Below, piece by piece: positions 7,143 through 41,895 of a stretch of 64,000 nt of DNA. Position numbers and translations under genes: made by a program. The notes under the pieces are model-generated. The model had not been told where the DNA came from, ran no database searches, and worked only from the letters and a program-made list of their open reading frames with translations. Numbering within the stretch: the first letter of the stretch is position 1; the number at the start of each line of letters is the position of its first letter. Source of the stretch: Kineosporia succinea (lineage in GTDB: Bacteria; Actinomycetota; Actinomycetes; Actinomycetales; Kineosporiaceae); the NCBI RefSeq assembly GCF_030811555.1, contig NZ_JAUSQZ010000001.1, positions 3,159,241-3,223,240 of the forward strand. Reading direction: 5' to 3'.

Positions 7143-9298
7143 GCCGTCAGCAGCTCGTACCGCGGGCTGGGCTTGCCGAAGAGGTAGCCCTGAGCGTGCT
7201 CCACGCCGATCCCGGCGAGGAGCGCGCTCTGCGCCTCGGTCTCGACGCCCTCGACGATCACGTCGATGCCGAGACCGTGGCCGAGCCCGATCAGGGCCTC
7301 CACGATGCGGTCGCACTGCGGGTCCTCACCCAGACCCGAGGTGAAGCTGCGGTCCACCTTGATGCCCGAGACCGGAAGGTCGCGCAGGTACGACAGGGCC
7401 GAGAAGCCGGTGCCGAAGTCGTCCACCACGATCCGCACCCCGATGCCGTGTAGGCGCTCGATCTCCTGGCGGGCCGACGGCGCCGCGCTCAGCATCACCG
7501 ACTCGGTCAGCTCGAGCACGAGTTGCCCGGCGGGCAGCCCGGATTCGGCCAGAGCCTTCTCCACCTGGTCGGCGAGACCGGGCCGGATCATCTGGTTCGG
7601 GGAGACGTTGACGGCCACGTAGCCCGGGTGCGGGCTGGACGCGGCGGCCTGCACCGCGGCGCGCAGCACCCAGGTGCCGAGCTCGACGATCAGGCCGGAC
7701 TCCTCGGCGACGGGCAGGAAGGTGATCGGGGGCATGAGCCCGCGCTGCGGGTGACGCCAGCGCACCAGCGCCTCGCGGCCGATCACGTTCCGGCCGAGCA
7801 GACCGACGATCGGCTGGAAGTGCAGCTCCAGCTCGCCGTCGGTGATCGCGGCGCGCAGCTGGGACTCCAGGTCCAGACGCTCGGCGGCGGCCTTGCGCAG
7901 GCCGGTGTCCACGGCGTCCCAGCGGTCGCGGCCCCGGTTCTTCGCCTGGTAGGTGGCGATCTCGGCGTCACGCAGCAGCATCAGGGGGTCGTTGTCGGCG
8001 GTGTTCGAGAGGGCGATGCCGACGCTGATCGTGGGGCGCAGCGTTCGGCCCCCGAGCACCAGCGGCTCGTTCACCGCGGCGCGCACCCGGTCGGCGATCA
8101 TGCCGGCCTCGCTCTCGTCGGCGATGTCGTCGCACACCACCACGAACTCGTCGCCGCCCAGACGGCCGGCGGTGTCACCGGCGCGCAGCGAACCGGCGAC
8201 GCGGCGGCCGATCTCGGCCAGCACCTCGTCGCCGTCCTCGTAACCGGCGTTGTCGTTGACGACGCGGAAATGGTCGACGTCGCACTGCAGTACGGCCACC
8301 CGCAGACCGCTGCGGCGGGTGCGGTCGAGGGCCTTCTGGATGCGGTCGAGCACGAGCGGACGACTGGGGAGGCCGGTGAGCCGGTCGTGCAGCGTCATGT
8401 GGGTCATCAGGCCCTGGGCCTGGTACAGGTCGCTGCGGTCCTCGATCTGCACGACGAGCTGGACCGCGCGGGAGGAGGAGTCGCGGATCGGGGTGACGAC
8501 GAGCGTGCCCCACAGATGCATGCCGCCGTGCCCGGTGAAGCGCCGCTCCAGCCGCAGCGCGTCCTCGTCGTTGCTGATCAGGCCGGCGATCCGGGCGCGC
8601 ACGGTGTCGACGTCCTTGGGGTGCACGATGTCGGCCAGAGTGCGGGCCTGCAGCTCGTCGGCGCGGTAGCCGAGCATCCGGCACAGCGTGCGGTTCACCC
8701 GCAGGAAGCGGCCGTTCAGCGTGGCCACGGCGATGCCGATCGGGCTGTGCTGCATGGTGCGGCGGAAGATGTCCTCGCCGTCGGCGTCGTGCACCGGGGC
8801 GTCCGGGCCGGGCGCCGGGTCGGCGGCCGGGGTGATCGAGCTGACCACCGCGCGGGCCGTTCCGTCGTCGCCCAGCAGCGGGATCGAGGTGACCTGCAGC
8901 AGCCGGCTCACCCCGTCGACCAGCACCGGGTCGGTGAAACCGCTCTGCATCTGGCCGCTGCGCAACGCGGCCGAGCTGATCCGGTTCAGGCCCTCGATGC
9001 GGCCGGGGCGGGGTTCGGCGACCCGGCGGTGCCCGTTCAGGTGCAGCGGGCTGGTCTCGTCGGCGCCGGCCCGGCGCGGGCTGGGCACACCCGGGGTCGG
9101 TTCCTCGGGGCCCTCGATCAGGGTGAGGCCGAGCAGCTGACCGGCCTTCGGGTTCGCCAGGAGCACGCTGCCGTTCGCGTCCTGCAGCAGCACGCCGTCC
9201 GGGAGCGCGCCGAGCAGGGCCCGGTGCCGGGCCTCCGACTCGGCGACGGTAACGCGGGCCAGGTCGTGCCGGGCCCGGCGTAGATCTCCTCGCGGCAT
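7139..9298 (-). CDS. PAS-GGDEF-EAL cyclic-di-GMP turnover protein
   Basis: A 719-residue cytoplasmic signalling protein. Two PAS regions (about residues 15-150 and 175-290) are followed by a GGDEF domain (about 300-465) and an EAL domain (about 480-719). The cyclase active site is intact (GRLGGDEFVVV). An RxxD inhibitory site (RAGD) lies five residues upstream of it. The phosphodiesterase residues also look intact: REALVRW, NVSPNQ, ELTES, DDFGTGFSALSYL, KVDRSF, EGVET and QGYLFG. The protein could therefore both make and break cyclic di-GMP. The start at 9298 is preferred because GAGGAGAG lies just upstream; the frame stays open to 9394. Confidence 0.9.
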   Translation of the reverse strand: MPRGDLRRARHDLARVTVAESEARHRALLGALPDGVLLQDANGSVLLANPKAGQLLGLTLIEGPEEPTPGVPSPRRAGADETSPLHLNGHRRVAEPRPGRIEGLNRISSAALRSGQMQSGFTDPVLVDGVSRLLQVTSIPLLGDDGTARAVVSSITPAADPAPGPDAPVHDADGEDIFRRTMQHSPIGIAVATLNGRFLRVNRTLCRMLGYRADELQARTLADIVHPKDVDTVRARIAGLISNDEDALRLERRFTGHGGMHLWGTLVVTPIRDSSSRAVQLVVQIEDRSDLYQAQGLMTHMTLHDRLTGLPSRPLVLDRIQKALDRTRRSGLRVAVLQCDVDHFRVVNDNAGYEDGDEVLAEIGRRVAGSLRAGDTAGRLGGDEFVVVCDDIADESEAGMIADRVRAAVNEPLVLGGRTLRPTISVGIALSNTADNDPLMLLRDAEIATYQAKNRGRDRWDAVDTGLRKAAAERLDLESQLRAAITDGELELHFQPIVGLLGRNVIGREALVRWRHPQRGLMPPITFLPVAEESGLIVELGTWVLRAAVQAAASSPHPGYVAVNVSPNQMIRPGLADQVEKALAESGLPAGQLVLELTESVMLSAAPSARQEIERLHGIGVRIVVDDFGTGFSALSYLRDLPVSGIKVDRSFTSGLGEDPQCDRIVEALIGLGHGLGIDVIVEGVETEAQSALLAGIGVEHAQGYLFGKPSPRYELLTA

Positions 9299-9759
9299 GA
9301 CTCTCCTCATCGTGTCCCGCGCCCTCGCCAACGAGACACGGCGTTCCTCACCGGCAGTGTATGAACCCTTACCCCGTGTCCGACGGGACGACACGGGGAG
9401 GTCTACGCCTCGTTGACACTTTTCGGTGCCCGGGTTGATCCGCTTTAGCCCGGCGAAGGGTGACTGAGATCAAAAATCCTGTCCGGTGGACGCTTCCGGG
9501 GAACGCCGGATTGGTCCGTCGTCACTCGATTGCCGCCTTGTGCGGACTTCGGAGGCCCGTCCGGGCGTCACCTCACATTCCGGGGCCCGGGGGCGTCTAC
9601 CGATCGGGAGGGGTGATCACCGATGCGGGTCCGGATCACGTTCAGGGTGTTCCCCGATCGTGCCCGGGCAGTGACGCTCCTCATACTCGGCTGGTGTGGC
9701 GGGAAACCTCGTCACAAGGGGGAGCCGGTCGCCGGTTCAGGGGAGCTCGGAGTCGAGTC
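9299..9759. promoter_or_regulatory. Divergent intergenic region between the GGDEF-EAL and MMPL genes
   Basis: About 460 bp with no gene I can support. On the minus strand a TACACT box (reverse complement of 9356-9361) lies about 60 bp upstream of the GGDEF-EAL start. On the plus strand TTGACA occurs at 9413-9418, but no convincing -10 follows at 17 bp spacing. An in-frame extension of the MMPL gene reaches back to 9460 but reads as non-protein-like sequence. Confidence 0.4.
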
Positions 9760-11919
9760 ATGACGCGCACAGCCACGTTCGTCGTCAGGCATCGCTGGTG
9801 GGTGATCGGCTTCTGGCTGATCGCCCTCGTCGCCGGGGTCGGGGCCGCGTCCGCCGTGCCCGACCGGCTGACCTACGACTTCTCGCTGCCGGGGCAGGAG
9901 GGTTACGAGACCTCGGCGAAGCTGGGCGAGGCCTACGGCATCACCGGGGAGCAGTCGTTCGTGCCGGTCTACGCCGCTGCCGACGGTGTCCGGGGGCACC
10001 GGGCCGAGATCGCCGAGGTCGACGCGGCGCTCGCGCAGCTGCCCGGGGTCCAGGTGGTGGGCTACGCCGAGACGGGTGACGAGCGCTTCCTCTCCGACGA
10101 CGGGCGGGCCGCGTTCAGCCTGCTGTTCACCCCCACCGCCGAGGGCTTCGAAGACCCGCTCGCCGGGCAGGTCGAGCAGACCCTGGCCCGGGCCGCTCAG
10201 GAGGTCGGGCTCGAGACGAGTCTCACCGGCTACCAGCAGCTCTCGCTCGACTCGGCCGACGACACCGAGGGCCCGAGTGTGCTCGCCGAGACGCTGATCG
10301 GGGCGTTCGGGGCGCTGATCGTGCTGCTGTTCGTGTTCGCCTCGTTCCTGGCGCTGGTGCCGCTGCTGATCGCGGCGGTGGCCATCCTGTCCACCTTCCT
10401 GGTGGTGCTCGGGCTCACCGAGGTCACCGACGTGTCGTTCGTGGTGCAGTTCCTGGTCGCGCTGATCGGGCTGGGCGTCGCCATCGACTACTCGCTGCTG
10501 GTGGTGTCGCGCTGGCGGGAGGAGCGGGCGCACGGGGCGGGCAACGACGAGGCGGTGGTCACGGCGGTGCGCACGGCCGGGCACGCGGTGCTGGCCTCCG
10601 GGGTCACGGTCGCGATCAGCCTGGTCGCGCTGATCGTCGTGCCGGTGCCGATGCTGCGCAGCATGGGTTTCGGCGGCATGCTGATCCCGCTGATGAGCAC
10701 GCTGGTCGTGCTCACGCTGCTGCCGGCGCTGCTCAGTCTGGCCGGGCCCCGCGTCGACTGGCCGCGAATCCGCAAGGAGAGCAGGGCTTCCCGGGCCTGG
10801 ACGGCCTGGGGCCGGGGTGTGGTGCGGTTCCGCTGGGTCGCCGCCGCCGTGGGCGCCGCGGTGCTGGGGCTGGCCGTCGCACCGGTGTTCGGTCTGCAGT
10901 TCGGCATCACCAGTTCCGGTTCGCTGTCCGACTCCGGCCCGGCCTACGAGACCCTGAGCGATCTGCGCGACGGGGGAGTGGGCAGTGGCGTGCTGTCGCC
11001 GATCACCGTGGCGGTGGCCTCCCCGGCCGATGTGCCCGCCACGGTCGCCGCGGCCTCGGCCGTCGCCGGGGTGAGAGTGGTGGCCCCGCTCGACCCGTCG
11101 CCCTCCGGTCTCACCGGTGTGGTGGTGGTGCCCGACCAGGAGACGGTCGACAACACCTCGGTGGCGCTCACCGACGACGTGCGAGATGCCGTGAGTGCCC
11201 TGCCCGGCTACGAAGGGCTGGCCGGGGCGGGGCCGATCGTGCAGGACTACCAGCGCGCCGTGTACGACCGGTTCCCGCTCGTGCTGACCCTGATCGCACT
11301 GGTCACCTTCGTGCTGCTGATGCGCACCTTCCGCTCGGTGCTGCTGCCGCTCAAGGCCGTGGTGCTGAACCTCGTGAGCGTGGCGGCGGTGTTCGGGCTG
11401 GCTACGTTCTTCTGGCAGGAGGGGCACGGGTCGGAGGCGGTGTTCGGCGTCAGCGAGACCGGGGCTATGGAGTTCTGGCTCCCCGTGCTGATTTTCGCGT
11501 TCCTGTTCGGGCTCTCGATGGACTACGAGGTGTTCCTGCTGGCGCGCATGCGCGAGGAGTACGACCGCACCGGTTCCACGAGAGCTGCGGTGGAACAGGG
11601 CATGGGCCGCACCGGGCGGCTCATCACGTCGGCCGCGCTGATCCTGTTCTTCTCGTTCGCGGCGCTCGCCTCGGCGCCCGACACCGAGATCAAGGTGCTC
11701 GCCACGTCGCTCGGGGTGGGCATCCTGGTCGACGCCACGCTGGTGAGGTCGCTGCTGGTGCCGGCGCTGGTGTCCCTGTTCGGCAAGTACAACTGGTGGC
11801 TCCCGGCCTGGCTGGCCCGGCCGCTGAGGGTCGAGCCGTCACCGTTGCGGCCGGAGGTGCCCGCGGCGTCGCCTGCGGGTGACGAGGGGGAGCGCCAGCG
11901 GGTCGAGGTGGTTGGCTGA
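9760..11919 (+). CDS. MMPL/RND-superfamily transporter
   Basis: A 719-residue membrane protein of the MMPL family (related to MmpL lipid and drug exporters). The first helix is near residues 10-35, then an external loop, a five-helix bundle, a second external loop and a second five-helix bundle. This is the usual duplicated RND layout. Hallmark motifs appear in both halves: GVAIDYSLLVVSRWREE and GLSMDYEVFLLARMREEY, each with the DY pair thought to relay protons. The start is the ATG at 9760, where the protein begins MTRTATFVVRHRWWV; the 100 upstream open codons are not typical protein. The substrate cannot be inferred. A strong terminator follows. Confidence 0.9.
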   Translation: MTRTATFVVRHRWWVIGFWLIALVAGVGAASAVPDRLTYDFSLPGQEGYETSAKLGEAYGITGEQSFVPVYAAADGVRGHRAEIAEVDAALAQLPGVQVVGYAETGDERFLSDDGRAAFSLLFTPTAEGFEDPLAGQVEQTLARAAQEVGLETSLTGYQQLSLDSADDTEGPSVLAETLIGAFGALIVLLFVFASFLALVPLLIAAVAILSTFLVVLGLTEVTDVSFVVQFLVALIGLGVAIDYSLLVVSRWREERAHGAGNDEAVVTAVRTAGHAVLASGVTVAISLVALIVVPVPMLRSMGFGGMLIPLMSTLVVLTLLPALLSLAGPRVDWPRIRKESRASRAWTAWGRGVVRFRWVAAAVGAAVLGLAVAPVFGLQFGITSSGSLSDSGPAYETLSDLRDGGVGSGVLSPITVAVASPADVPATVAAASAVAGVRVVAPLDPSPSGLTGVVVVPDQETVDNTSVALTDDVRDAVSALPGYEGLAGAGPIVQDYQRAVYDRFPLVLTLIALVTFVLLMRTFRSVLLPLKAVVLNLVSVAAVFGLATFFWQEGHGSEAVFGVSETGAMEFWLPVLIFAFLFGLSMDYEVFLLARMREEYDRTGSTRAAVEQGMGRTGRLITSAALILFFSFAALASAPDTEIKVLATSLGVGILVDATLVRSLLVPALVSLFGKYNWWLPAWLARPLRVEPSPLRPEVPAASPAGDEGERQRVEVVG

Positions 11920-33279: not shown

Positions 33280-34226
33280 GTTCCGGGATGGGCTTCGGCC
33301 CGATCACCTCGCCCTCGGGGCGGTTGCTCGACCAGATCCGGCTCTCCGGCGTCACCGCCCGGGGCACGCACGGGGTCTTCGACTTCGAGCGGCGCGAGGG
33401 GCAGGACTTCGTGATCGACGTGGTCCTGCACACCGACATCGCGCCCGCCGCGGCGAGCGACGACCTGACGAAGACCACGCACTACGGCGAGCTCGCGGGC
33501 ACGGTCGCCGACATCGTGCGGGGTGAGCCGGTCGACCTGATCGAGACCCTGGCCGAGCGCATCGCACTGGCCTGCCTGCAGCCGCCGGGTGTGATCGCGG
33601 CCGACGTCGCCGTGCACAAGCCCCAGGCCCCGATCGAAGAGACGTTCGGGGACGTGGTGGTCGCCATCCGTCGCGAGCGCACTGTTCTCCTCGAGAGGGC
33701 TCCGGCCGAACCGGTGCCGGTGGTGCTGGCCCTGGGCACGAACATGGGTGACCGGCTGATGATCCTGCGGGGCGCCGTGAGCGACCTGCGCGAGACCGAG
33801 GGCCTGGAGGTCGACGTGCTCTCGCCGGTGATCCAGACCGACCCGGTGGGCGGCCCGGAGCAGCCCGACTACCTCAACGCCGTGGTGCTGTGCACCACCA
33901 CGCTGAGCGCCTACGACCTGCTGGCCGCCTGCAACCGGATCGAGGCCGGGTTCGGCCGCGAGCGCACGGTGCGGTGGGGCCCGCGCACCCTCGACATCGA
34001 CGTGATCAGCTACGGCGACCTGCGCAGCTACGACGAGAAGCTGACACTGCCGCACCCGCGCGCGCACGAGCGGGCGTTCGTGCTGGCGCCCTGGCTGGCC
34101 GCCGACCCTCAGGCCTCGCTGCTCACCGAGCGCGGCACCGAGAAGGTCACGGTCCTGCTCGACGGGGCGCCCGACCGGATCTCGCTGCGGCAGCGGCCGG
34201 AACTGACGCTGGAGCACTGGGCGTGA
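33276..34226 (+). CDS. folBK: Fused dihydroneopterin aldolase and HPPK (FolB-FolK)
   Basis: A 316-residue bifunctional folate enzyme. Residues 10-130 are FolB, which converts dihydroneopterin to 6-hydroxymethyl-dihydropterin: IRLSGVTARGTHGVFDFERREGQ-type start, then TTHYGELAG and LIETLAERIAL. Residues 147-316 are FolK, which pyrophosphorylates that product: ALGTNMGDRLMILRGAV, then TVRWGPRTLDIDVISYGD and LPHPRAHERAFVLAPW. The GTG at 33276 gives a 4-bp overlap with folP. Many actinobacteria keep the two as separate neighbouring genes; here one chain holds consecutive steps. DUF3180 overlaps its end by 4 bp. Confidence 0.92.
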   Translation: MSSGMGFGPITSPSGRLLDQIRLSGVTARGTHGVFDFERREGQDFVIDVVLHTDIAPAAASDDLTKTTHYGELAGTVADIVRGEPVDLIETLAERIALACLQPPGVIAADVAVHKPQAPIEETFGDVVVAIRRERTVLLERAPAEPVPVVLALGTNMGDRLMILRGAVSDLRETEGLEVDVLSPVIQTDPVGGPEQPDYLNAVVLCTTTLSAYDLLAACNRIEAGFGRERTVRWGPRTLDIDVISYGDLRSYDEKLTLPHPRAHERAFVLAPWLAADPQASLLTERGTEKVTVLLDGAPDRISLRQRPELTLEHWA

Positions 34227-34699
34227 GGGCCGCCCGGATCGGCCGCGCGCTGCTGATCGGCGTGGCCTCGGCCGTGATCTTCTGGGTGCTGCTCGACACC
34301 TGGACCGGGCAGGGGCACGAGGCCCCGCCGTTGCCGTGGACCTCGGTGTTCGGTGTCGTGGCGCTGTTCCTGGTGGTGTTCGCGGCCGGGCTGCCGATGC
34401 GCCGCTGGCAGCGCACCGACCCGGGCGACCGCAAGGACGTGCGGCGGCCGATCGATCCGCTGGTCGCGGCACGCACCGCGGTGCTGGCCAAGGCGGCGGC
34501 CTACGGCGGTGCGGTCATCTTCGGCTGGTATCTGGCCCAGGGTCTGCTCCTGCTGCCCGACCTGGTGGGCGACCGGCTCGACCGCTTCATCCTGGCGCTG
34601 ATCGCGGCGGTGTCCGCGGTCGCTCTGAGCGTCACCGGATTCGTGGTGCAGAAATGGTGCAGAGTGCCCCCGGATGACGACGAGTCGAAGTCTGATTGA
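34223..34699 (+). CDS. DUF3180 membrane protein
   Basis: A 158-residue membrane protein with four predicted helices (LLIGVASAVIFWVLLDTW, TSVFGVVALFLVVFAAGLP, AYGGAVIFGWYLAQGLLLLP, FILALIAAVSAVALSVTGFVV). It ends in an acidic tail (DDDESKSD). DUF3180 genes habitually follow folK in actinobacteria. Their function is unknown, and the linkage hints only loosely at folate metabolism or envelope. The GTG start sits inside the folBK stop (GTGA), so it is coupled to that gene. Confidence 0.87.
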   Translation: MRAARIGRALLIGVASAVIFWVLLDTWTGQGHEAPPLPWTSVFGVVALFLVVFAAGLPMRRWQRTDPGDRKDVRRPIDPLVAARTAVLAKAAAYGGAVIFGWYLAQGLLLLPDLVGDRLDRFILALIAAVSAVALSVTGFVVQKWCRVPPDDDESKSD

Positions 34700-34884
34700 G
34701 AGATGCCTGTGGCCCGAGTGGGCCACGAACCTCCCGCCAGTGTGAAAACCCCTGGGCGGGAGGGTGACAGGTAGATCGGCCGAACGGCCATTCCTGTTGG
34801 TATGGGCGCTGCTGCACCCGCGCGTAACTACCCTGGGTACCCGATCGTAAACACAACGCGGTCATCGATCCCAGGAGACACCCC

Positions 34885-36213
34885 TTGCCCTCTGCAGCCC
34901 TGTCTGCGCCCGGCGCCGTGCCCTTGGCGTCGGGCCCACTGGACGTGGTCAATGCGTTCGTCCCCTGGGACTCGGTTCAGGACCTGCGCGCCTGGATGCC
35001 GCTGGGGGTCGCGGGGGTCATCGTCTGGAGCTTGTGGATCTACCGCTGGGTGCTGTCCCGGGCCTATCGCCCCGTCAGCAACCTGTACCGCACCAGCACG
35101 TCGGTGGTCGTGCCGTCGTTCCGTGAGGACGTCGAGATCCTGCGCCGCTGCCTGGCGACCTGGCTGGAGCAGAACCCGTCCGAGCTGATCGTGGTGCCGG
35201 ACGTCGAGGACGTCGAGTGCATCGAGATGCTCAACCGGGTCGGTGACCCGCGTCTGCGCGTGCTGCCGTTCGCGCACCAGGGCAAGCGCTCGGCGCTCGG
35301 GGTGGGGATCCGGGCCGCACGCGGTGAGGTGCTGGTGCTGACCGACTCCGACACCGCCTGGGAGCCGGGGCTGCTCGACGCGGTGCAGATGCCGTTCCAG
35401 GACCCGGCCGTGGGCGCGGTCGCCACCCAGCAGAAGGTCTACAAGCGCTGGTCGAGCGTGTGGCGGGTGATCGCGGACTGGATCATCGACCTGCGGTACT
35501 ACGACTACGTGCCGGCGATGGGTCGCGCCGGGGGTGTCATCTGCGTGTCCGGCCGTACCGCGGCCTACCGTCGCGAGGCCGTGCTGCCGGTGCTGCCGAA
35601 CCTGGAGCACGAGTTCTTCCTGGGGCGCCGCTGCATCTCCGGTGACGACGGCCGGCTGACCTGGCTGGTGCTGGCCTCCGGCTACCAGACCGTGTTCCAG
35701 TCGAGCGCCCAGGCGATGTCGATGTTCCCGGCCAACTTCGCCGGGTTCGTGAAGCAGCGCATCCGCTGGAGCCGTAACTCCTACCGCTGCTACCTGACCG
35801 CGCTCTGGAAGGGCTGGCTGCGCGACGTGCCGTTCGTCTCCAAGATCACCGTGCTGCAGATCCTGCTCACGCCGGTCACCATGGGCATGGCCCTGACCTA
35901 CCTGGTGCTCTCGCGCATGGCCCCGGGCTGGCAGGGCGTGGTGCTGGCGTTGTGCTGGCTGATGGCGGGCCGCCTGGTGCGCAGCGTCTCGCACCTGCGC
36001 CGGCACCCGGCCGACATCATCCTGCTGCCGGTGGTGACGCTGGTGGTCATCCTGATCTCGCTGCCGATCAAGCTGTACGCCTTCGTCACGATGAACAAGC
36101 AGGGCTGGCTCACCCGCAACAGCGACCAGATCGGTGGCGACGGCCAGGACAACGCCTCGCTCGGGGTCAGCGTCGACGAGACCGGCCGCGGGGTGGTTCT
36201 CGATGTCCGGTAA
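34885..36213 (+). CDS. Processive family 2 glycosyltransferase (hyaluronan/NodC-like polysaccharide synthase)
   Basis: A 442-residue integral membrane GT2. One N-terminal helix (about residues 40-58) is followed by the catalytic domain and then three or four C-terminal helices (about 312-410). Synthase motifs are present in order: TSVVVPSFRED, HQGKRSAL, LVLTDSDTAWEP (DxD for the nucleotide-sugar metal), GRAGGVICVSGRTAAYRRE, SGDDGRLTW (catalytic base region) and KQRIRWSRN (the QxxRW product-binding motif). This set marks enzymes that build and export beta-linked polymers such as hyaluronan, chitin oligomers, cellulose or alginate. The sugar cannot be read. The TTG start has AGGAG seven bases upstream. 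Its end overlaps the next gene by 11 bp. Confidence 0.88.
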   Translation: MPSAALSAPGAVPLASGPLDVVNAFVPWDSVQDLRAWMPLGVAGVIVWSLWIYRWVLSRAYRPVSNLYRTSTSVVVPSFREDVEILRRCLATWLEQNPSELIVVPDVEDVECIEMLNRVGDPRLRVLPFAHQGKRSALGVGIRAARGEVLVLTDSDTAWEPGLLDAVQMPFQDPAVGAVATQQKVYKRWSSVWRVIADWIIDLRYYDYVPAMGRAGGVICVSGRTAAYRREAVLPVLPNLEHEFFLGRRCISGDDGRLTWLVLASGYQTVFQSSAQAMSMFPANFAGFVKQRIRWSRNSYRCYLTALWKGWLRDVPFVSKITVLQILLTPVTMGMALTYLVLSRMAPGWQGVVLALCWLMAGRLVRSVSHLRRHPADIILLPVVTLVVILISLPIKLYAFVTMNKQGWLTRNSDQIGGDGQDNASLGVSVDETGRGVVLDVR

Positions 36214-39200
36214 GACGTTCCGCCGGATCGCGGTGGGCGGCGCGGTGGCCGGGGTCCTGGTCGCCGCGTTCGGCGTGTCCACGGTCACCGCCGCCCCGCG
36301 CTCCGCCACGACGGCCCCCGCCGACGGCCCGGTGCTCGCCGCGAAGGCGGCCCGCGCCGATCCGCTGCACCAGGCCGAGCTGGTCACGGGGGAGGACCAG
36401 CGGGTCACCCGGGCGCTGCTGACCCCGGCCGTGCGCAAGGAGAAGGGCGCCGGCACGGGGCCCTACCGGGCGCGCTCGAACGGCCAGTACACGCTGGTGC
36501 TGACCGCCCGTAAGCGGCCCTACAGCTGGGACGACCTGCGAAAGCTGTCGCCGGACAAGCTGGTTCCGCAGGCCGACGGTTCCTTCCTGCTGCGGGAGCA
36601 CGTGCTGGTCGGGCCGGGGGCCACCCTGGCGATCAGCCCGAGCCGCCCGCTGAGGATCAAGATGAGTTCGGGTCCCGACGGTTTCGTCTCGATCGTCACC
36701 GACGGCGGCCGGCTGCGCCTGAACGGCACGGCCACGGCGCCGATCTCGATCCTGAGCTGGGACGAGTCGCACGGCAAGCCCGACCAGAAGCTCGGCGACG
36801 GACGGGCCTACGTGCGAGCCAGCGGCCAGCTGCAGGCGACCTGGACGAAGTTCAGCCGGCTCGGTTTCTGGAGCGGGCGCACCGGGGGTGTGGCCGTGGT
36901 CGCCTCCTCGTCGCTGCCCACCACGAACCTCAGCACCAGCGCCGCGACGGGCGTCACCGACGACCCGGTCGCGCAGCGCGCGGCGAGCCACACCGACATC
37001 CTGCCCGCGGGCAAGACGCCCACCACGGTGCAGGACGAGACGGCGTCGTTCACGTCGTCGATCAGTGACTCCTCCATGACCGGAAACGCTTTCGGGCTGT
37101 TCCTGTCCGGCTCGTCCGGCCCGCAGGTGACCAAGACGGTGATCAGCAAGAGCCTGGTCGACGGCCTGGTGCTGCACCGCAACGTGTCCACCGCGACGAT
37201 CCGCGACGTGAAGGTCGAACTGTCGGCCGTCGACGGCGTGGTCATCAACCGCAACGTCGAGGGCACGGTGCTCACGCAGCTGGACGTGCAGCGCAACGGC
37301 CGTGACGGGGTCGTGCTCAACGGCAGTCCGCTGGCCGACGGGCCCTCACCCAGTGGCGCGTCCACGCGTCCGTTCGGCAACAACGTCCTGACCACCAGCA
37401 AGAGCACCGGCAACGGACGCATCGGGGTGCACGTCGCCGGCGGCGTCGCGATCACCGTGCAGGGAAACACCGTGACCGGTGGGCATTCCGGCATCGTGGT
37501 CTCGGACCAGGCCCGCGACGTCACGGTGAACAGCAACACGGTCAAGGACACCTCGGTCAACGGTATCCAGGTGCGCGACGACTCACACGCCGAGCTCACG
37601 TCGAACAACGTGATCGGGTCGGCCACCGGGGTGCACATCCGGGACGCGGTGGCGACGTTGCGCGACAACTCCACCTCGGGCGTGACGCTGCACGCGTTCA
37701 CGTTCGTCGGGCACGTGGCCGGCAGCCGGGCCGACGGCAACCAGTTGCGCGGCTCGGGCACCTCGGCCGTGGACCTGGTGCGGGTCAGCGGTGACGAGCC
37801 GAAGGTGACCGACACCGACGACTCCGGCTGGTCGAAGACCGTCACCAAGGACTCGCTCGTCAGCATTCTCCTGCATCCGCTCACGATGGTCTGGATCGGT
37901 GTCGGCATCCTGCTGCTCCTGATGAGCCGTCCCCGGCGCGGTACCCGTACCCCCTACCTGGCTGATCCTCTGATCTCGCGGGTCGGGCCGGTGGGTGGTC
38001 ACCTCCCGGCGGTGCAGTCGGTCGGGAATGCGGAGACGGCGGTGGAAATGCACGCGCTGCCGTCGGAAACGTCTCGACAGCCGAAAACCGCCCGGCACCC
38101 CGAATTCGCCCCGCACTCCGAGACTGTCCGGCACCCCGAATTCGCCCCGCTCCCCGAGACTGTCCGGCACGCCGAGACTGCCCAGAACGCCGAGACCGTG
38201 CGGATGACGCCGGTCGCGGCCTCGCCGCTCGCCAGGACCCAGCCCCACCCGGAGCCCGCCCTGGCCGCCGCCGGCAACGGTGTCGGTGCCGGCGCCGGAT
38301 CGGCTGGTTCAGCCGGCGCCGGTTCGGCCGGCCCCACGATGCGTGGCCCGGAGACGCCACGCCGGGAACGTGGGCGTTCGCAGACGGGTGCCCAGGGGCA
38401 GGCCGGTCGCGAGTCGACGAGGCGAGAGACCGTCGCCCGCGAAGCGGCCGCCCGGGAACACACAGCCCGGCAAGCAGCCCGGGAAGCGGCAGCCCAGGAA
38501 CACGCGGTCCGGGAAGCGGCCGCCCGGGAACACGCAGCTCGGGACGCGGCGGCGCGGGAACACGCGGCGCGGGAACACGCGGCGCGGGAACACGCGGTCC
38601 GGGAAGGGGCGGCGCGGGAACACGCGGCGCGGGAACACGCGGTCCGGGAAGGGGCGGCGCGGGAACACGCGGCTCGGGAACACGCAGCTCGGGAACAGGC
38701 AGCCCGGGAACAGGCAGCCCGGGAACAGGGAGCCCAGGAAGCAGCGGCCCAGGATACGACAACCCGGCAGAGCAGCACCCGGCAGAGCGCCACCCGGGAG
38801 ACGTCAGCCCAGGAGGCAGCGTCGGCGCCGACGAGCCGCAATCCGGAACCGGCCTCCCGCTACCGTCCGCGCAGTGCGACCCCGTCCCCGGCGACCCCCG
38901 GCGACCGGCCACGCCGAGCCCGGACGGACTCTCCCACCCGCGACCAGTCCACCCAGCCTGACCAGGGCAGCGCCCAGCCCGCCCGGATCAGCGAGGCCGG
39001 CGTCCCTCGTCCCACCCCGGCCCGACCCTTGGTGCCGGGTCTGCAGCCGAGGCGAGCACAACGTCCGCAAGCAGTGAGGCCCGGAAACCCCGCCGACCAC
39101 CCGGGCCACCGCGCCACCCCTCACCACACCGGCAGCCAGCACCCGAACAGCCAGCACCCGAACAACCAGCACCCGAACAACCAGCACGTCGGCACCCGAG

Positions 39201-39532
39201 CCGGCTTCTCCGAACCCGAGCCCCCGGTGGCCGCCGACTGGAGGCAGGCGCGTCCGGCGTCCACCGGAGCCCAGGCCCCCACGCCCGTGGTGCCCCGTCA
39301 GCAACCCGACGTGAGCATCGACGTCCGTGATTCCCGCCCCCGTGGACGCCAGAACGAACGTCTGAACGACCGCCCGAACGAACCCGGCCGCGCCGGGACC
39401 AGCCAGAACGCCGGGACCAGCCAGAACGCCGAGACCCACCAGAACGAGGGCAGCACCGTGATCGACCTGGCCATCGCCGAGGCCCGGATCAACCCCGCCA
39501 CCCCGCGCCGCCGCCGGGCGGTGGGCCGGTGA
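36203..39532 (+). CDS. Membrane-anchored right-handed beta-helix protein with a long repeat-rich tail
   Basis: A 1109-residue protein. Residues 1-31 look like a signal peptide. Residues 32-190 form an N-terminal domain. Residues about 200-540 are parallel beta-helix coils of the PbH1/NosD type, for example VQGNTVTGGHSGIVVSDQA then VTVNSNTVKDTSVNGIQV. One membrane helix follows (about 553-574, HPLTMVWIGVGILLLLM), with SRPRRGTR after it. By the positive-inside rule the remaining 535 residues would be cytoplasmic. That tail is low complexity: three 12-residue HPEFAP/ETVR repeats, about twenty AAREH-type pentapeptides, QHPNN repeats and TSQNAG repeats. Beta-helix proteins of this kind include polysaccharide epimerases and lyases, but I cannot assign a catalytic site. 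The ATG at 36203 overlaps the glycosyltransferase gene. Confidence 0.82.
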   Translation: MSGKTFRRIAVGGAVAGVLVAAFGVSTVTAAPRSATTAPADGPVLAAKAARADPLHQAELVTGEDQRVTRALLTPAVRKEKGAGTGPYRARSNGQYTLVLTARKRPYSWDDLRKLSPDKLVPQADGSFLLREHVLVGPGATLAISPSRPLRIKMSSGPDGFVSIVTDGGRLRLNGTATAPISILSWDESHGKPDQKLGDGRAYVRASGQLQATWTKFSRLGFWSGRTGGVAVVASSSLPTTNLSTSAATGVTDDPVAQRAASHTDILPAGKTPTTVQDETASFTSSISDSSMTGNAFGLFLSGSSGPQVTKTVISKSLVDGLVLHRNVSTATIRDVKVELSAVDGVVINRNVEGTVLTQLDVQRNGRDGVVLNGSPLADGPSPSGASTRPFGNNVLTTSKSTGNGRIGVHVAGGVAITVQGNTVTGGHSGIVVSDQARDVTVNSNTVKDTSVNGIQVRDDSHAELTSNNVIGSATGVHIRDAVATLRDNSTSGVTLHAFTFVGHVAGSRADGNQLRGSGTSAVDLVRVSGDEPKVTDTDDSGWSKTVTKDSLVSILLHPLTMVWIGVGILLLLMSRPRRGTRTPYLADPLISRVGPVGGHLPAVQSVGNAETAVEMHALPSETSRQPKTARHPEFAPHSETVRHPEFAPLPETVRHAETAQNAETVRMTPVAASPLARTQPHPEPALAAAGNGVGAGAGSAGSAGAGSAGPTMRGPETPRRERGRSQTGAQGQAGRESTRRETVAREAAAREHTARQAAREAAAQEHAVREAAAREHAARDAAAREHAAREHAAREHAVREGAAREHAAREHAVREGAAREHAAREHAAREQAAREQAAREQGAQEAAAQDTTTRQSSTRQSATRETSAQEAASAPTSRNPEPASRYRPRSATPSPATPGDRPRRARTDSPTRDQSTQPDQGSAQPARISEAGVPRPTPARPLVPGLQPRRAQRPQAVRPGNPADHPGHRATPHHTGSQHPNSQHPNNQHPNNQHVGTRAGFSEPEPPVAADWRQARPASTGAQAPTPVVPRQQPDVSIDVRDSRPRGRQNERLNDRPNEPGRAGTSQNAGTSQNAETHQNEGSTVIDLAIAEARINPATPRRRRAVGR
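38096..38203 (+). repeat. Three 36-bp tandem repeats within the beta-helix gene
   Basis: Units at 38096-38131, 38132-38167 and 38168-38203, the first two nearly identical and the third more diverged. Each encodes a 12-residue block of the form HPEFAPHSETVR. They are in frame and lie just after the membrane helix. Confidence 0.85.
38445..38760 (+). repeat. 15-bp tandem array (AAREH pentapeptides) with an exact 45-bp higher-order repeat
   Basis: About twenty in-frame 15-bp units of the type GCGGCGCGGGAACAC. Within it, 38564-38608 and 38609-38653 are identical 45-bp copies (three pentapeptides each: AAREH, AAREH, AVREG). Exact higher-order copies indicate recent expansion by slippage or unequal recombination. 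Confidence 0.9.
39137..39190 (+). repeat. 15-bp tandem repeat (QHPNN) near the end of the beta-helix gene
   Basis: Three full copies and one partial copy of a 15-bp unit of the form CAGCACCCGAACAAC, in frame and encoding QHPNS/QHPNN. Later, at about 39406-39445, an 18-bp unit encoding TSQNAG/E is repeated two and a half times. Confidence 0.8.
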
Positions 39533-40716
39533 ACGGGCCGAAGGGTGGTCCGCTGATGGCCGTCGCCGTTCTCGGCCTGGTCGTCACGTTCGGCGCGGGC
39601 TGGGCCGTGGGGCAGAACGGGTCCGACGAAACCTCGCAGGCCGTCAGCACTCCCGCTCCGGACATCACGTCGGTGGCGACCCCGGCCGCCACCACCCCGG
39701 ACCCGGACGACACCGTCCTGCCCGCCGAGACGTCCACCCAGCCGTCCGATTCGGACGACTACGCGGCCAGCCGGATCAAGCTGCCGTCGGTGGACAAGTG
39801 GAAGACGCCTCCCGTCGCGGTGTTCCGCTGTCCCAAGGCCACCGTCACCGTCTCGACCAGTGACCAGCTGCAGCGAGCGCTCGACACCGCCAAGGCCGGT
39901 ACCTCGATCCGGATCGCGGACGGGCTCTACACCGGCAAGTTCCGCACCAGCCGCGACGGCACCGCCAAGAAGCCGATCTACCTGTGCGGGGGCCGGGGCG
40001 CGGTGCTCGAGGCGGGGGCGGTCAAGGGCGGGTACTCGCTGCACTTCGACGGCGCTTCGTACTGGCGCGCCAACGGTTTCACCGTGCGCAACGGCCAGAA
40101 GGGCATCATGGTCGACGCCGGCACCGGCATCGGCCTGCAGAACCTGCTGGTCGAGCAGATCGGTGACGAGGCCGTGCACCTGCGCACCGGCAGCACGAAG
40201 AACGTGGTGCGGGGCCTGACCATCCGCGATACCGGCCGACGCAAGCCGCAGTACGGCGAGGGTGTCTACATCGGCACGGCCGAGAGCAACTGGTGCGAGT
40301 ACACCGACTGCCAGCCGGATCCCAGCAACGACAACTTTGTCCTGGGCAACACCATCTCCGGGACCACGGCCGAGAGCGTCGACATCAAGGAAGGCACCAA
40401 GGGCGGGGTGCTGAGCGGCAACACCTTCAACGGGTCGGCCATGACCGAGGGCGACAGCTGGGTGGACGTGAAGGGCAACGGCTGGCTGATCTCGAACAAC
40501 ACCGGAACCTCCTCGCGCGCGGACGGTTACAAGGTGCTCGAGATCCTCGACGGCTGGGGCTGGCGCAACCTGTTCGCGGCCAACCGGTCCACGGTCAAGG
40601 GCAGCGGTTACGCCGTCAACGTGACCAAGCGGCACAGCGACAACGTGGTGCTGTGCGACAACACCGTCACGTCGGCCGCCAAGGGCCTGACCACGATCGA
40701 CTGCTCGAGGAAGTAG
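39529..40716 (+). CDS. Exported right-handed beta-helix protein (pectate-lyase/epimerase-like fold)
   Basis: A 395-residue protein. It begins with a short positive region and a hydrophobic helix (LMAVAVLGLVVTFGAGWAVG), which is a signal peptide or membrane anchor, then a Thr/Pro-rich stalk to about residue 85. Residues 95-395 form beta-helix coils: IRIADGLYTGKFRTSRDGTAKKPIYLCGG is the typical opening of PbH1 lyase-like proteins, followed by DGASYWRANGFTVRNGQKGIMV and repeated asparagine-rich turns. Several cysteines (CP, LCGG, WCEYTDC, LCDN, DCS) could form disulfides outside the cell. The GTG start overlaps the preceding gene's stop by 4 bp, making it the third coupled gene of the glycosyltransferase operon. 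Its stop abuts the stop of convergent nuoD with no gap. Confidence 0.83.
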   Translation: MNGPKGGPLMAVAVLGLVVTFGAGWAVGQNGSDETSQAVSTPAPDITSVATPAATTPDPDDTVLPAETSTQPSDSDDYAASRIKLPSVDKWKTPPVAVFRCPKATVTVSTSDQLQRALDTAKAGTSIRIADGLYTGKFRTSRDGTAKKPIYLCGGRGAVLEAGAVKGGYSLHFDGASYWRANGFTVRNGQKGIMVDAGTGIGLQNLLVEQIGDEAVHLRTGSTKNVVRGLTIRDTGRRKPQYGEGVYIGTAESNWCEYTDCQPDPSNDNFVLGNTISGTTAESVDIKEGTKGGVLSGNTFNGSAMTEGDSWVDVKGNGWLISNNTGTSSRADGYKVLEILDGWGWRNLFAANRSTVKGSGYAVNVTKRHSDNVVLCDNTVTSAAKGLTTIDCSRK

Positions 40717-41895
40717 CTACTTGTCCACGTCCCCGACGACGAAGAACGTGGACCCGAGAATCGCCACCAGGTCGGAGAGCAGGCAGCCCGGCAGCAGTTC
40801 GCTGAGCACCTGCACGTTGCTGAACGAGGCCGAGCGCAGCTTCAGCCGCCAGGGCACCTTGTCGCCCTTGCTGACCAGGTAGTACCCGTTGAGCCCGAGC
40901 GGGTTCTCGGTCCAGCGGTAGACGTGGCCGGCCGGAACCTTCAGGACCTTGGGCAGTTTCGTGTTGATCGGGCCGGGTGGCAGTTCGCGCAGCCGTTCCA
41001 CGCAGGCCTGCGCCAGGTCGAGGCTCACGTGCACCTGCTCCACCAGGACCTCGAACCGGGCCAGGCAGTCGCCCTCGGTGCGGGTGACCACGCGACCCGG
41101 CCCGCCGGGGGCGAACAGCTCGCCGTAGGCCAGGTAGGGGTCGTCACGGCGCAGGTCGATGTCGAGCCCGCTGGCCCGCGCGACCGGACCGCTCACCCCG
41201 TAGGCGGCGGCCGTCTCCCTCGACAGCACACCCACACCGCGCGTCCTCGCCCGAAGGATCTCGTTGCCCACGATCAGCGACTCCAGCCGGGGCAACCGCC
41301 GGCGCACGGCCGCGATCGTCTTCAGCACCCGGGCGGTCCAGCCCGCGGGCAGGTCTTCCTTCAGGCCGCCGACCCGGTTGAACATGTAGTGCATGCGCCC
41401 GCCGCTGATCTCCTCCATCACCGCCTGCAGTTCCTCCCGCTCGGTGAACGAGTAGAAGACCGGCGTGATCGCCCCGAGCTCCAGCGGGTACGAGCCCAGG
41501 AACATCAGGTGATTGAGGACGCGGTTGAGCTCGGCCAGGAGGGTGCGGGCCCAGACGGCCCGTTCCGGCACCTCGAGTTCGAGCATCTGCTCGGCGGCCA
41601 GCACCACGCCGAGTTCGTTGGCGAACGCGGAGAGCCAGTCGTGGCGGTTGGCCAGCACGATGATCTGCCGGTAGTCGCGCACCTCGAAGAGCTTCTCGGC
41701 GCCACGGTGCATGTACCCGACGATCGGCTCGGCGCTGATCACGCGCTCGCCGTCGACCACGACGCGCAGCCGCAGCACACCGTGGGTGGCCGGGTGCTGC
41801 GGGCCGATGTTGAGCACCATGTCCGACGTGGCCAGCCCCCCGGCCCCGAGCGCGACGGTCAGGGCCCGGGCGTCACCACCGTCAGTGGAAGTCAC
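40717..41895 (-). CDS. nuoD: Orphan NADH-quinone oxidoreductase subunit D homologue
   Basis: A 392-residue NuoD/NDUFS2-like 49-kDa subunit standing alone, with no other nuo gene in the window. Conserved blocks include [15 protein letters not shown] (quinone-site His34 and His38), [12 protein letters not shown] and the C-terminal [40 protein letters not shown] and [17 protein letters not shown]. The usual quinone-binding tyrosine (Tyr108 of bovine NDUFS2, in the RLDY motif) is tryptophan here (RHDW, residue 87). It lacks the CxxC pairs of group 4 hydrogenases. It may be a paralogue that exchanges into complex I or has a separate role. It is convergent with the beta-helix operon. Confidence 0.88.

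Follow-up and report, generated by a model that had tools for sequence, protein, structure and literature searches.

The 64,000-bp stretch of Kineosporia succinea DNA analysed here (the window; positions 3,159,241-3,223,240 of an 8.07-Mb single-contig genome) contains three overlapping genes on the forward strand (Table 1). We call them GT, for a predicted polysaccharide synthase of glycosyltransferase family 2 (GT2), and BH1 and BH2, for two beta-helix proteins. BH1 starts at 36203 and GT ends at 36213, an overlap of 11 bp, while BH2 starts at 39529 and BH1 ends at 39532, an overlap of 4 bp; these open reading frames and overlaps, reported in a first-pass annotation of the window, were re-read from the sequence and agree with it. 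Seven bases separate a likely ribosome-binding site from the TTG start codon of GT at 34885. A scan of the locus for promoters and terminators returned nothing above shuffled sequences.

Table 1. Features of the GT-BH1-BH2 operon and its boundaries (window coordinates; aa, amino acids)
Feature	Position	Strand	Basis
Gene presumed to be of DUF3180 type, left boundary of inserted operon	34223..34699	+	Found in 7/8 same-family genomes searched
AGGAG, likely ribosome-binding site for the GT TTG start	34873..34877	+	Read from sequence
GT, membrane GT2 polysaccharide synthase, hyaluronan-synthase-like	34885..36213	+	Pfam PF13641, solved-structure matches, motifs
BH1, membrane-anchored beta-helix protein, AlgG-like	36203..39532	+	
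BH1 beta-helix domain (aa 85-545)	36455..37837	+	Predicted model m4de5247372ef, fold-alignment range
BH1 membrane segment (aa 555-573)	37865..37921	+	Hydropathy; model helix 559-574
BH1 repeat-rich tail (aa 574-1109), predicted cytoplasmic	37922..39529	+	Longest among tails measured; tandem repeat 38450-38754
BH2, exported PL31-type polysaccharide lyase (predicted)	39529..40716	+	PDB 6kfn profile match, Foldseek, PsAly residues
Gene presumed to be nuoD-like, right boundary of inserted operon	40717..41895	-	Near site in two same-family genomes lacking the trio

GT matches Pfam PF13641 with an E-value of 4.4e-30. Its closest solved structures are hyaluronan synthases, and these were also its best solved matches when kinship with Alg8 was considered, a question on which no direct comparison with Alg8 was made. 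The processive-GT2 motifs claimed earlier (DxD, GDD and QxxRW) are present, and HxGKR, DSDT, GDD, QRxRW and WLTR are invariant across 33 aligned sequences, the window copy included. We mapped GT onto the hyaluronan synthases CvHAS and XlHAS1 with our own residue correspondence from the structure-match alignments, taking the roles of residues and motifs from the accessible part of PMC11750622. GT carries the active-site Lys, the GKR, DSDT, GDD and QxxRW motifs and the Trp and Arg of WGTR; residues K177, C267, G270, R341 and W342 of CvHAS are kept as K134, C220 (in 32/33), G223, R294 and W295, and C337 of XlHAS1 as C250 (33/33), so that both active-site cysteines are retained in the family. In contrast, the GDDR and WGTR(G) motifs of hyaluronan synthases are GDDG and WLTR in all 33 sequences, and near the acceptor R256 of CvHAS corresponds to V209 (Val in 31, Ala in 2) and S345 to N298 (33/33). 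The Gly of WGTRG is Leu409 throughout; its change to Ala is described as incompatible with CvHAS function (PMC11750622, in the part available). Because of these departures GT is, as judged from its residues, hyaluronan-synthase-like and not a hyaluronan synthase. An identity as the chito-oligosaccharide synthase NodC was rejected: NodC is the top NCBIfam match, yet its 140 bits fall short of the cut-off of 550.

BH2 can be placed more precisely. Its profile match to the PL31 alginate lyase PsAly (PDB 6kfn) has an E-value of 2.4e-71 over 263 positions, and a Foldseek search with the predicted model (mean predicted local distance difference test, pLDDT, 86.2) returns PsAly at rank 1 with a root-mean-square deviation of 2.2, a TM score of 0.87 on the target and 0.66 on the query, and 34% identity. 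Following the catalytic and cation-binding residues named in the accessible part of PMC6796002, Lys128, His154, Arg156, Tyr184 and Lys221 of PsAly correspond to K191, H217, R219, Y247 and K287 of BH2, and Asp250, Lys252, Glu181 and Asp219 to D313, K315, E244 and D285, all kept in 49 of 49 aligned sequences; Glu216 corresponds to E282 (48/49). BH2 thus has both the catalytic pair Tyr184/Lys221 and the first cation site Glu181/Glu216/Asp219, and shares with PsAly its sequence, its beta-helix fold and seven conserved active-site residues. We therefore assign BH2 to PL31, with lyase activity as the predicted function. It differs from PsAly in being encoded with a polymer synthase and in two residues, Lys335 and Leu337, discussed below. 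PL31 enzymes characterised so far act on alginate. PsAly prefers polymannuronate according to the passage available (PMC6796002), and a relative of an enzyme combining GH5 and PL31 domains is reported to have both glucuronan and alginate lyase activity, the responsible domain being unstated in the passage concerned (PMC13235733). As a separate observation, a BH2 paralogue of 454-534 aa lies on the opposite strand just past the operon in Kineococcus and Cellulomonas (L094:16660-18264, L095:16271-17710, L101:16096-17460).

Between synthase and lyase, BH1 is a predicted membrane-anchored protein. The claim that BH1 is anchored and BH2 exported is borne out by hydropathy, with hydrophobic segments at aa 9-27 of both proteins and at aa 555-573 of BH1. 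In structure comparison the modelled beta-helix domain (mean pLDDT 84.2 over aa 1-600, model m4de5247372ef) matches the fold of AlgG, the periplasmic mannuronan C5-epimerase (PDB 4nk6). The catalytic-base His of the AlgG DPHD motif corresponds to H325 (52/54, with two gaps) and one AlgG Arg to R350 (51/54); unlike AlgG, BH1 has a C-terminal membrane anchor and, in the window, a long tail. A cytoplasmic repeat tail had been noted as a feature of the system. It is present in the window protein (536 aa), where a 15-bp repeat in 20.5 copies (38450-38754) encodes an A-R-E-H-A-type stretch. However, the family median is about 55 aa, and tails of 106-210 aa occur in other genera too, so that a long tail is not limited to the Kineosporia genus group. 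Because tail length varies in this way, we do not regard the tail as a defining part of the system. Two other identities were set aside. A match to histone HC2 (45.6 bits, Pfam cut-off 40) is confined to the A/R/E-rich repeat tail and was taken as compositional, and the copper protein NosD was rejected because, despite 53.8 bits in Pfam (cut-off 23.6), the NCBIfam NosD score is 18.5 of the 300 required and AlgG is nearer in fold.

Is this arrangement peculiar to one genome? The first-pass annotation had staked its proposal on the three genes being linked in related genomes. Genome contigs were searched with GT only, the best 80 of 86 loci were kept, and these were examined by tblastn with seeds for BH1, BH2 and UDP-glucose dehydrogenase (UGD), some of the seeds coming from seven of those loci. 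Downstream of GT, BH1 is found in 79/80, BH2 in 66/80 and UGD in 52/80. Fourteen loci are short of DNA (that of L109 ends 78 bases past GT); in the 66 with at least 5.5 kb downstream, BH1 follows GT in all 66, BH2 in 62 and UGD in 52, and 55 of these loci contain UGD at some position. In the four exceptions for BH2 (L114, L116, L117, L119), a BH2-like match lies at another place, between 2.1 and 4.1 kb from the end of GT. The commonest gene order is GT-BH1-BH2-UGD, GT and BH1 overlap or abut at 31 of 77 junctions, and BH1 and BH2 overlap at 31 of 65. The trio claimed earlier therefore stands, but the conserved unit usually includes a fourth gene, UGD, which is unlinked in the window genome. 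Gene clustering of the loci gave no further neighbour cluster in more than 10 of them. Since the linkage recurs across Actinomycetota, the grouping is not due to chance, and we regard the trio as a real, conserved operon with a predicted function.

The closest named relatives of GT are in Kineosporia babensis and K. rhizophila (89% identity). Of 98 genomes of the order, the own genome included, 13 have a GT match, at 64-100% identity in ten of them and at 31-34% in the other three. In eight of the ten close-GT genomes, GT and BH2 share a contig and are no more than about 3.3 kb apart, and in the other two (G009, G012) GT is near a contig end; three further genomes have a BH2 match without a GT match. 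In an 81-row tree of GT, sequences mostly cluster with others of their family, with Kineococcus apart from Kineosporia, which suggests that GT has long resided in Actinomycetota with many losses. Distances between GT sequences track those of BH1 most closely (Spearman 0.82), with lower values for BH2 (0.52) and UGD (0.60); some correlation would arise from shared ancestry alone. Variants of the arrangement were also seen: there are 15 BH1-BH1 junctions, in loci labelled Thermomonosporaceae and Streptosporangiaceae, and five Actinomadura loci (L062, L064, L069, L070, L089) have tandem BH1 and tandem BH2 genes ahead of UGD. One contig labelled Stenotrophomonas maltophilia (L109:10055-11278) carries a trio GT whose DNA is 97.8% identical over 1670 bp to that of Microbacterium saccharophilum, and is probably contamination.

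The linked dehydrogenase bears on the sugar. For one relative, the best solved matches of UGD are UDP-glucose dehydrogenases (327 bits, compared with 188 for GDP-mannose dehydrogenase), and for five relatives the best NCBIfam equivalog is the TuaD-type UDP-glucose dehydrogenase, at scores below its cut-off. Taken with the action of characterised PL31 enzymes on alginate and the glucuronan lyase activity reported for the relative of a GH5 and PL31 enzyme, this points to a product containing glucuronate, as homopolymer or copolymer. The window genome has a UGD homologue of 61% identity at 1,323,594, 1.9 Mb from the trio. About 8 kb from this homologue lies an MBOAT O-acyltransferase gene beside one for an AlgX-like SGNH protein (L144:7225-8706 and 8864-10465; about 1,333,125-1,336,365 of the own genome). 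This pair could acetylate a polysaccharide; tblastn found it in none of the 80 named trio loci.

We consider it probable that the three genes form an operon for synthase-dependent production of an acidic exopolysaccharide that contains uronate and is modified and cut at the cell surface. GT would polymerise UDP-sugars including UDP-glucuronate, and the nascent chain would cross the membrane through the synthase's own channel. BH1, anchored at the outer face, would take the chain into its beta-helix groove and most likely epimerise the uronate at C5, as AlgG does on mannuronan. The exported lyase BH2 would cleave this polymer through beta-elimination, either to trim it or to remove chains that have gone astray, by analogy with AlgL, which does so in alginate makers. 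The earlier proposal of a polymer made and then modified or cut at the outer face fits the predicted synthase type, the AlgG-like fold of BH1 and the PL31 assignment of BH2. Computational support covers these three features, gene linkage and the UGD linked in relatives; we infer the sugar of the product, the epimerase activity of BH1 and the strain's own polymer as the target of BH2. More tentatively, with the odds somewhat against so specific a version, the system may be a previously undescribed Gram-positive counterpart of alginate synthesis, in which an actinobacterial synthase, epimerase and lyase make and remodel a C5-epimerised glucuronan (glucuronate/iduronate) matrix polymer from UDP-glucuronate outside the membrane.

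Several observations weigh against this interpretation. At the positions of PsAly Gln276 (second cation site) and His278 (active site), BH2 of the window has K335 and L337, and the four other Kineosporia sequences read from its genus group have Lys and Ile, compared with Gln in 46/49 and His in 46/49 of the BH2 sequences. The H278A mutant of PsAly is listed at 0.25, its unit not being in that passage, and the wild type at 18 U/mg in a separate one (PMC6796002); His278 is absent from the completely conserved residues listed in the accessible part of the same paper and so is not family-defining. Activity may be lower, or specificity different, in the Kineosporia enzyme. In BH1, the DPHD motif of AlgG is VLHR in the window, with the His retained, and the position of Tyr314 is Asp in 35/54 or His in 16/54, which makes catalysis by BH1 uncertain. 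No UGD is linked to the trio in the window genome, close GT relatives (E 1e-90) are rare in the phylum (4 of 396 genomes, the own included), and the BH2 relatives without a GT match in 3/98 genomes imply that another role exists in this family.

The altered BH1 motif leaves substantial room, if less than an even chance, for a BH1 without epimerase activity that instead acts as a guide tethered to the membrane, carrying or shielding the growing chain, and leaves BH2 as sole catalytic modifier; the AlgG fold and the kept His and Arg speak for the enzymatic role. Somewhat less likely, the product is not a polyuronate but combines glucuronate with a neutral or amino sugar, in a copolymer resembling hyaluronan or the type 3 capsule. 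The hyaluronan synthases as closest solved relatives of GT and the two retained cysteines favour such a copolymer, whereas the departures of GT at GDDG, WLTR, N298 and the R256 position, together with the alginate substrate of characterised PL31 enzymes, argue against it. That BH2 is a nutritional degrader of environmental alginate or glucuronan, placed beside the synthase by accident, would suit its relatives without GT, but appears improbable given how tightly and how often it is coupled to GT and BH1. True alginate from GDP-mannuronate, which the polymannuronate preference of PsAly and the AlgG resemblance of BH1 would favour, is the least probable, since the linked dehydrogenase is UDP-glucose-type and GT matches synthases that use UDP-sugars.

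In the alginate operon of Pseudomonas and Azotobacter, alg8 encodes the synthase, algG the epimerase, algL the lyase and algD the dehydrogenase. Likewise, the actinobacterial loci bring together a processive GT2, an AlgG-fold protein and a predicted polyuronate lyase, joined in most relatives by a nucleotide-sugar 6-dehydrogenase. They differ in the UDP-glucose-type dehydrogenase in place of a linked GDP-mannose 6-dehydrogenase, in the hyaluronan-synthase-like GT, in a PL31 rather than a PL5 lyase, in the Gram-positive host, and in having no recurrent export or acetylation genes alongside (AlgK and AlgE were not searched for). The trio resembles the alginate set in its predicted working but departs from it in dehydrogenase type and in the DPHD motif. 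To our knowledge, alginate-like chemistry is familiar only in proteobacteria and brown algae; if our interpretation is true, a Gram-positive polyuronate module of three to four genes would extend it beyond them, provide a small cassette for tailorable acidic polymers and give context to the PL31-type lyases of actinomycetes. The operon also opens the matrix of its hosts to direct genetic testing. No alginate pathway is known from actinomycetes with PL41 homologues, according to the accessible part of PMC11468063, and in that of the operon survey PMC7112194 alginate operons are largely from Pseudomonas with no actinobacterial trio, the open-licence literature leaving absence in print unproven. 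The sporangium-matrix cluster imp of Actinoplanes was considered and rejected, as the available text describes GT4 enzymes, one GT2 and a Wzx/Wzy-like route and lacks the term 'beta-helix' (PMC12691653); the available part of a Streptomyces synteny paper (PMC13118837) is unrelated to the trio.

The left neighbour of the operon is a gene that we take to be DUF3180-type, and its right neighbour one that we presume, from its sequence, to be nuoD-like. In the congener G002 neither GT, BH2 nor the DUF3180 gene has a match, through assembly gap or loss, so that this genome is uninformative on the empty site, and the contig of G008 stops shortly past the DUF3180 gene. In G001 and G003 matched copies of the DUF3180 and nuoD-like genes flank the trio, and in G005 the DUF3180 gene is directly upstream of GT; from gene order and sizes we infer the same neighbours in G004 and downstream in G005. 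The DUF3180 gene adjoins folBK in the same-family genomes read that lack the trio. In two of these the gap between the DUF3180 and nuoD-like genes is filled by other genes (one in G010, four in G007), and the insertion site is therefore a variable spot.
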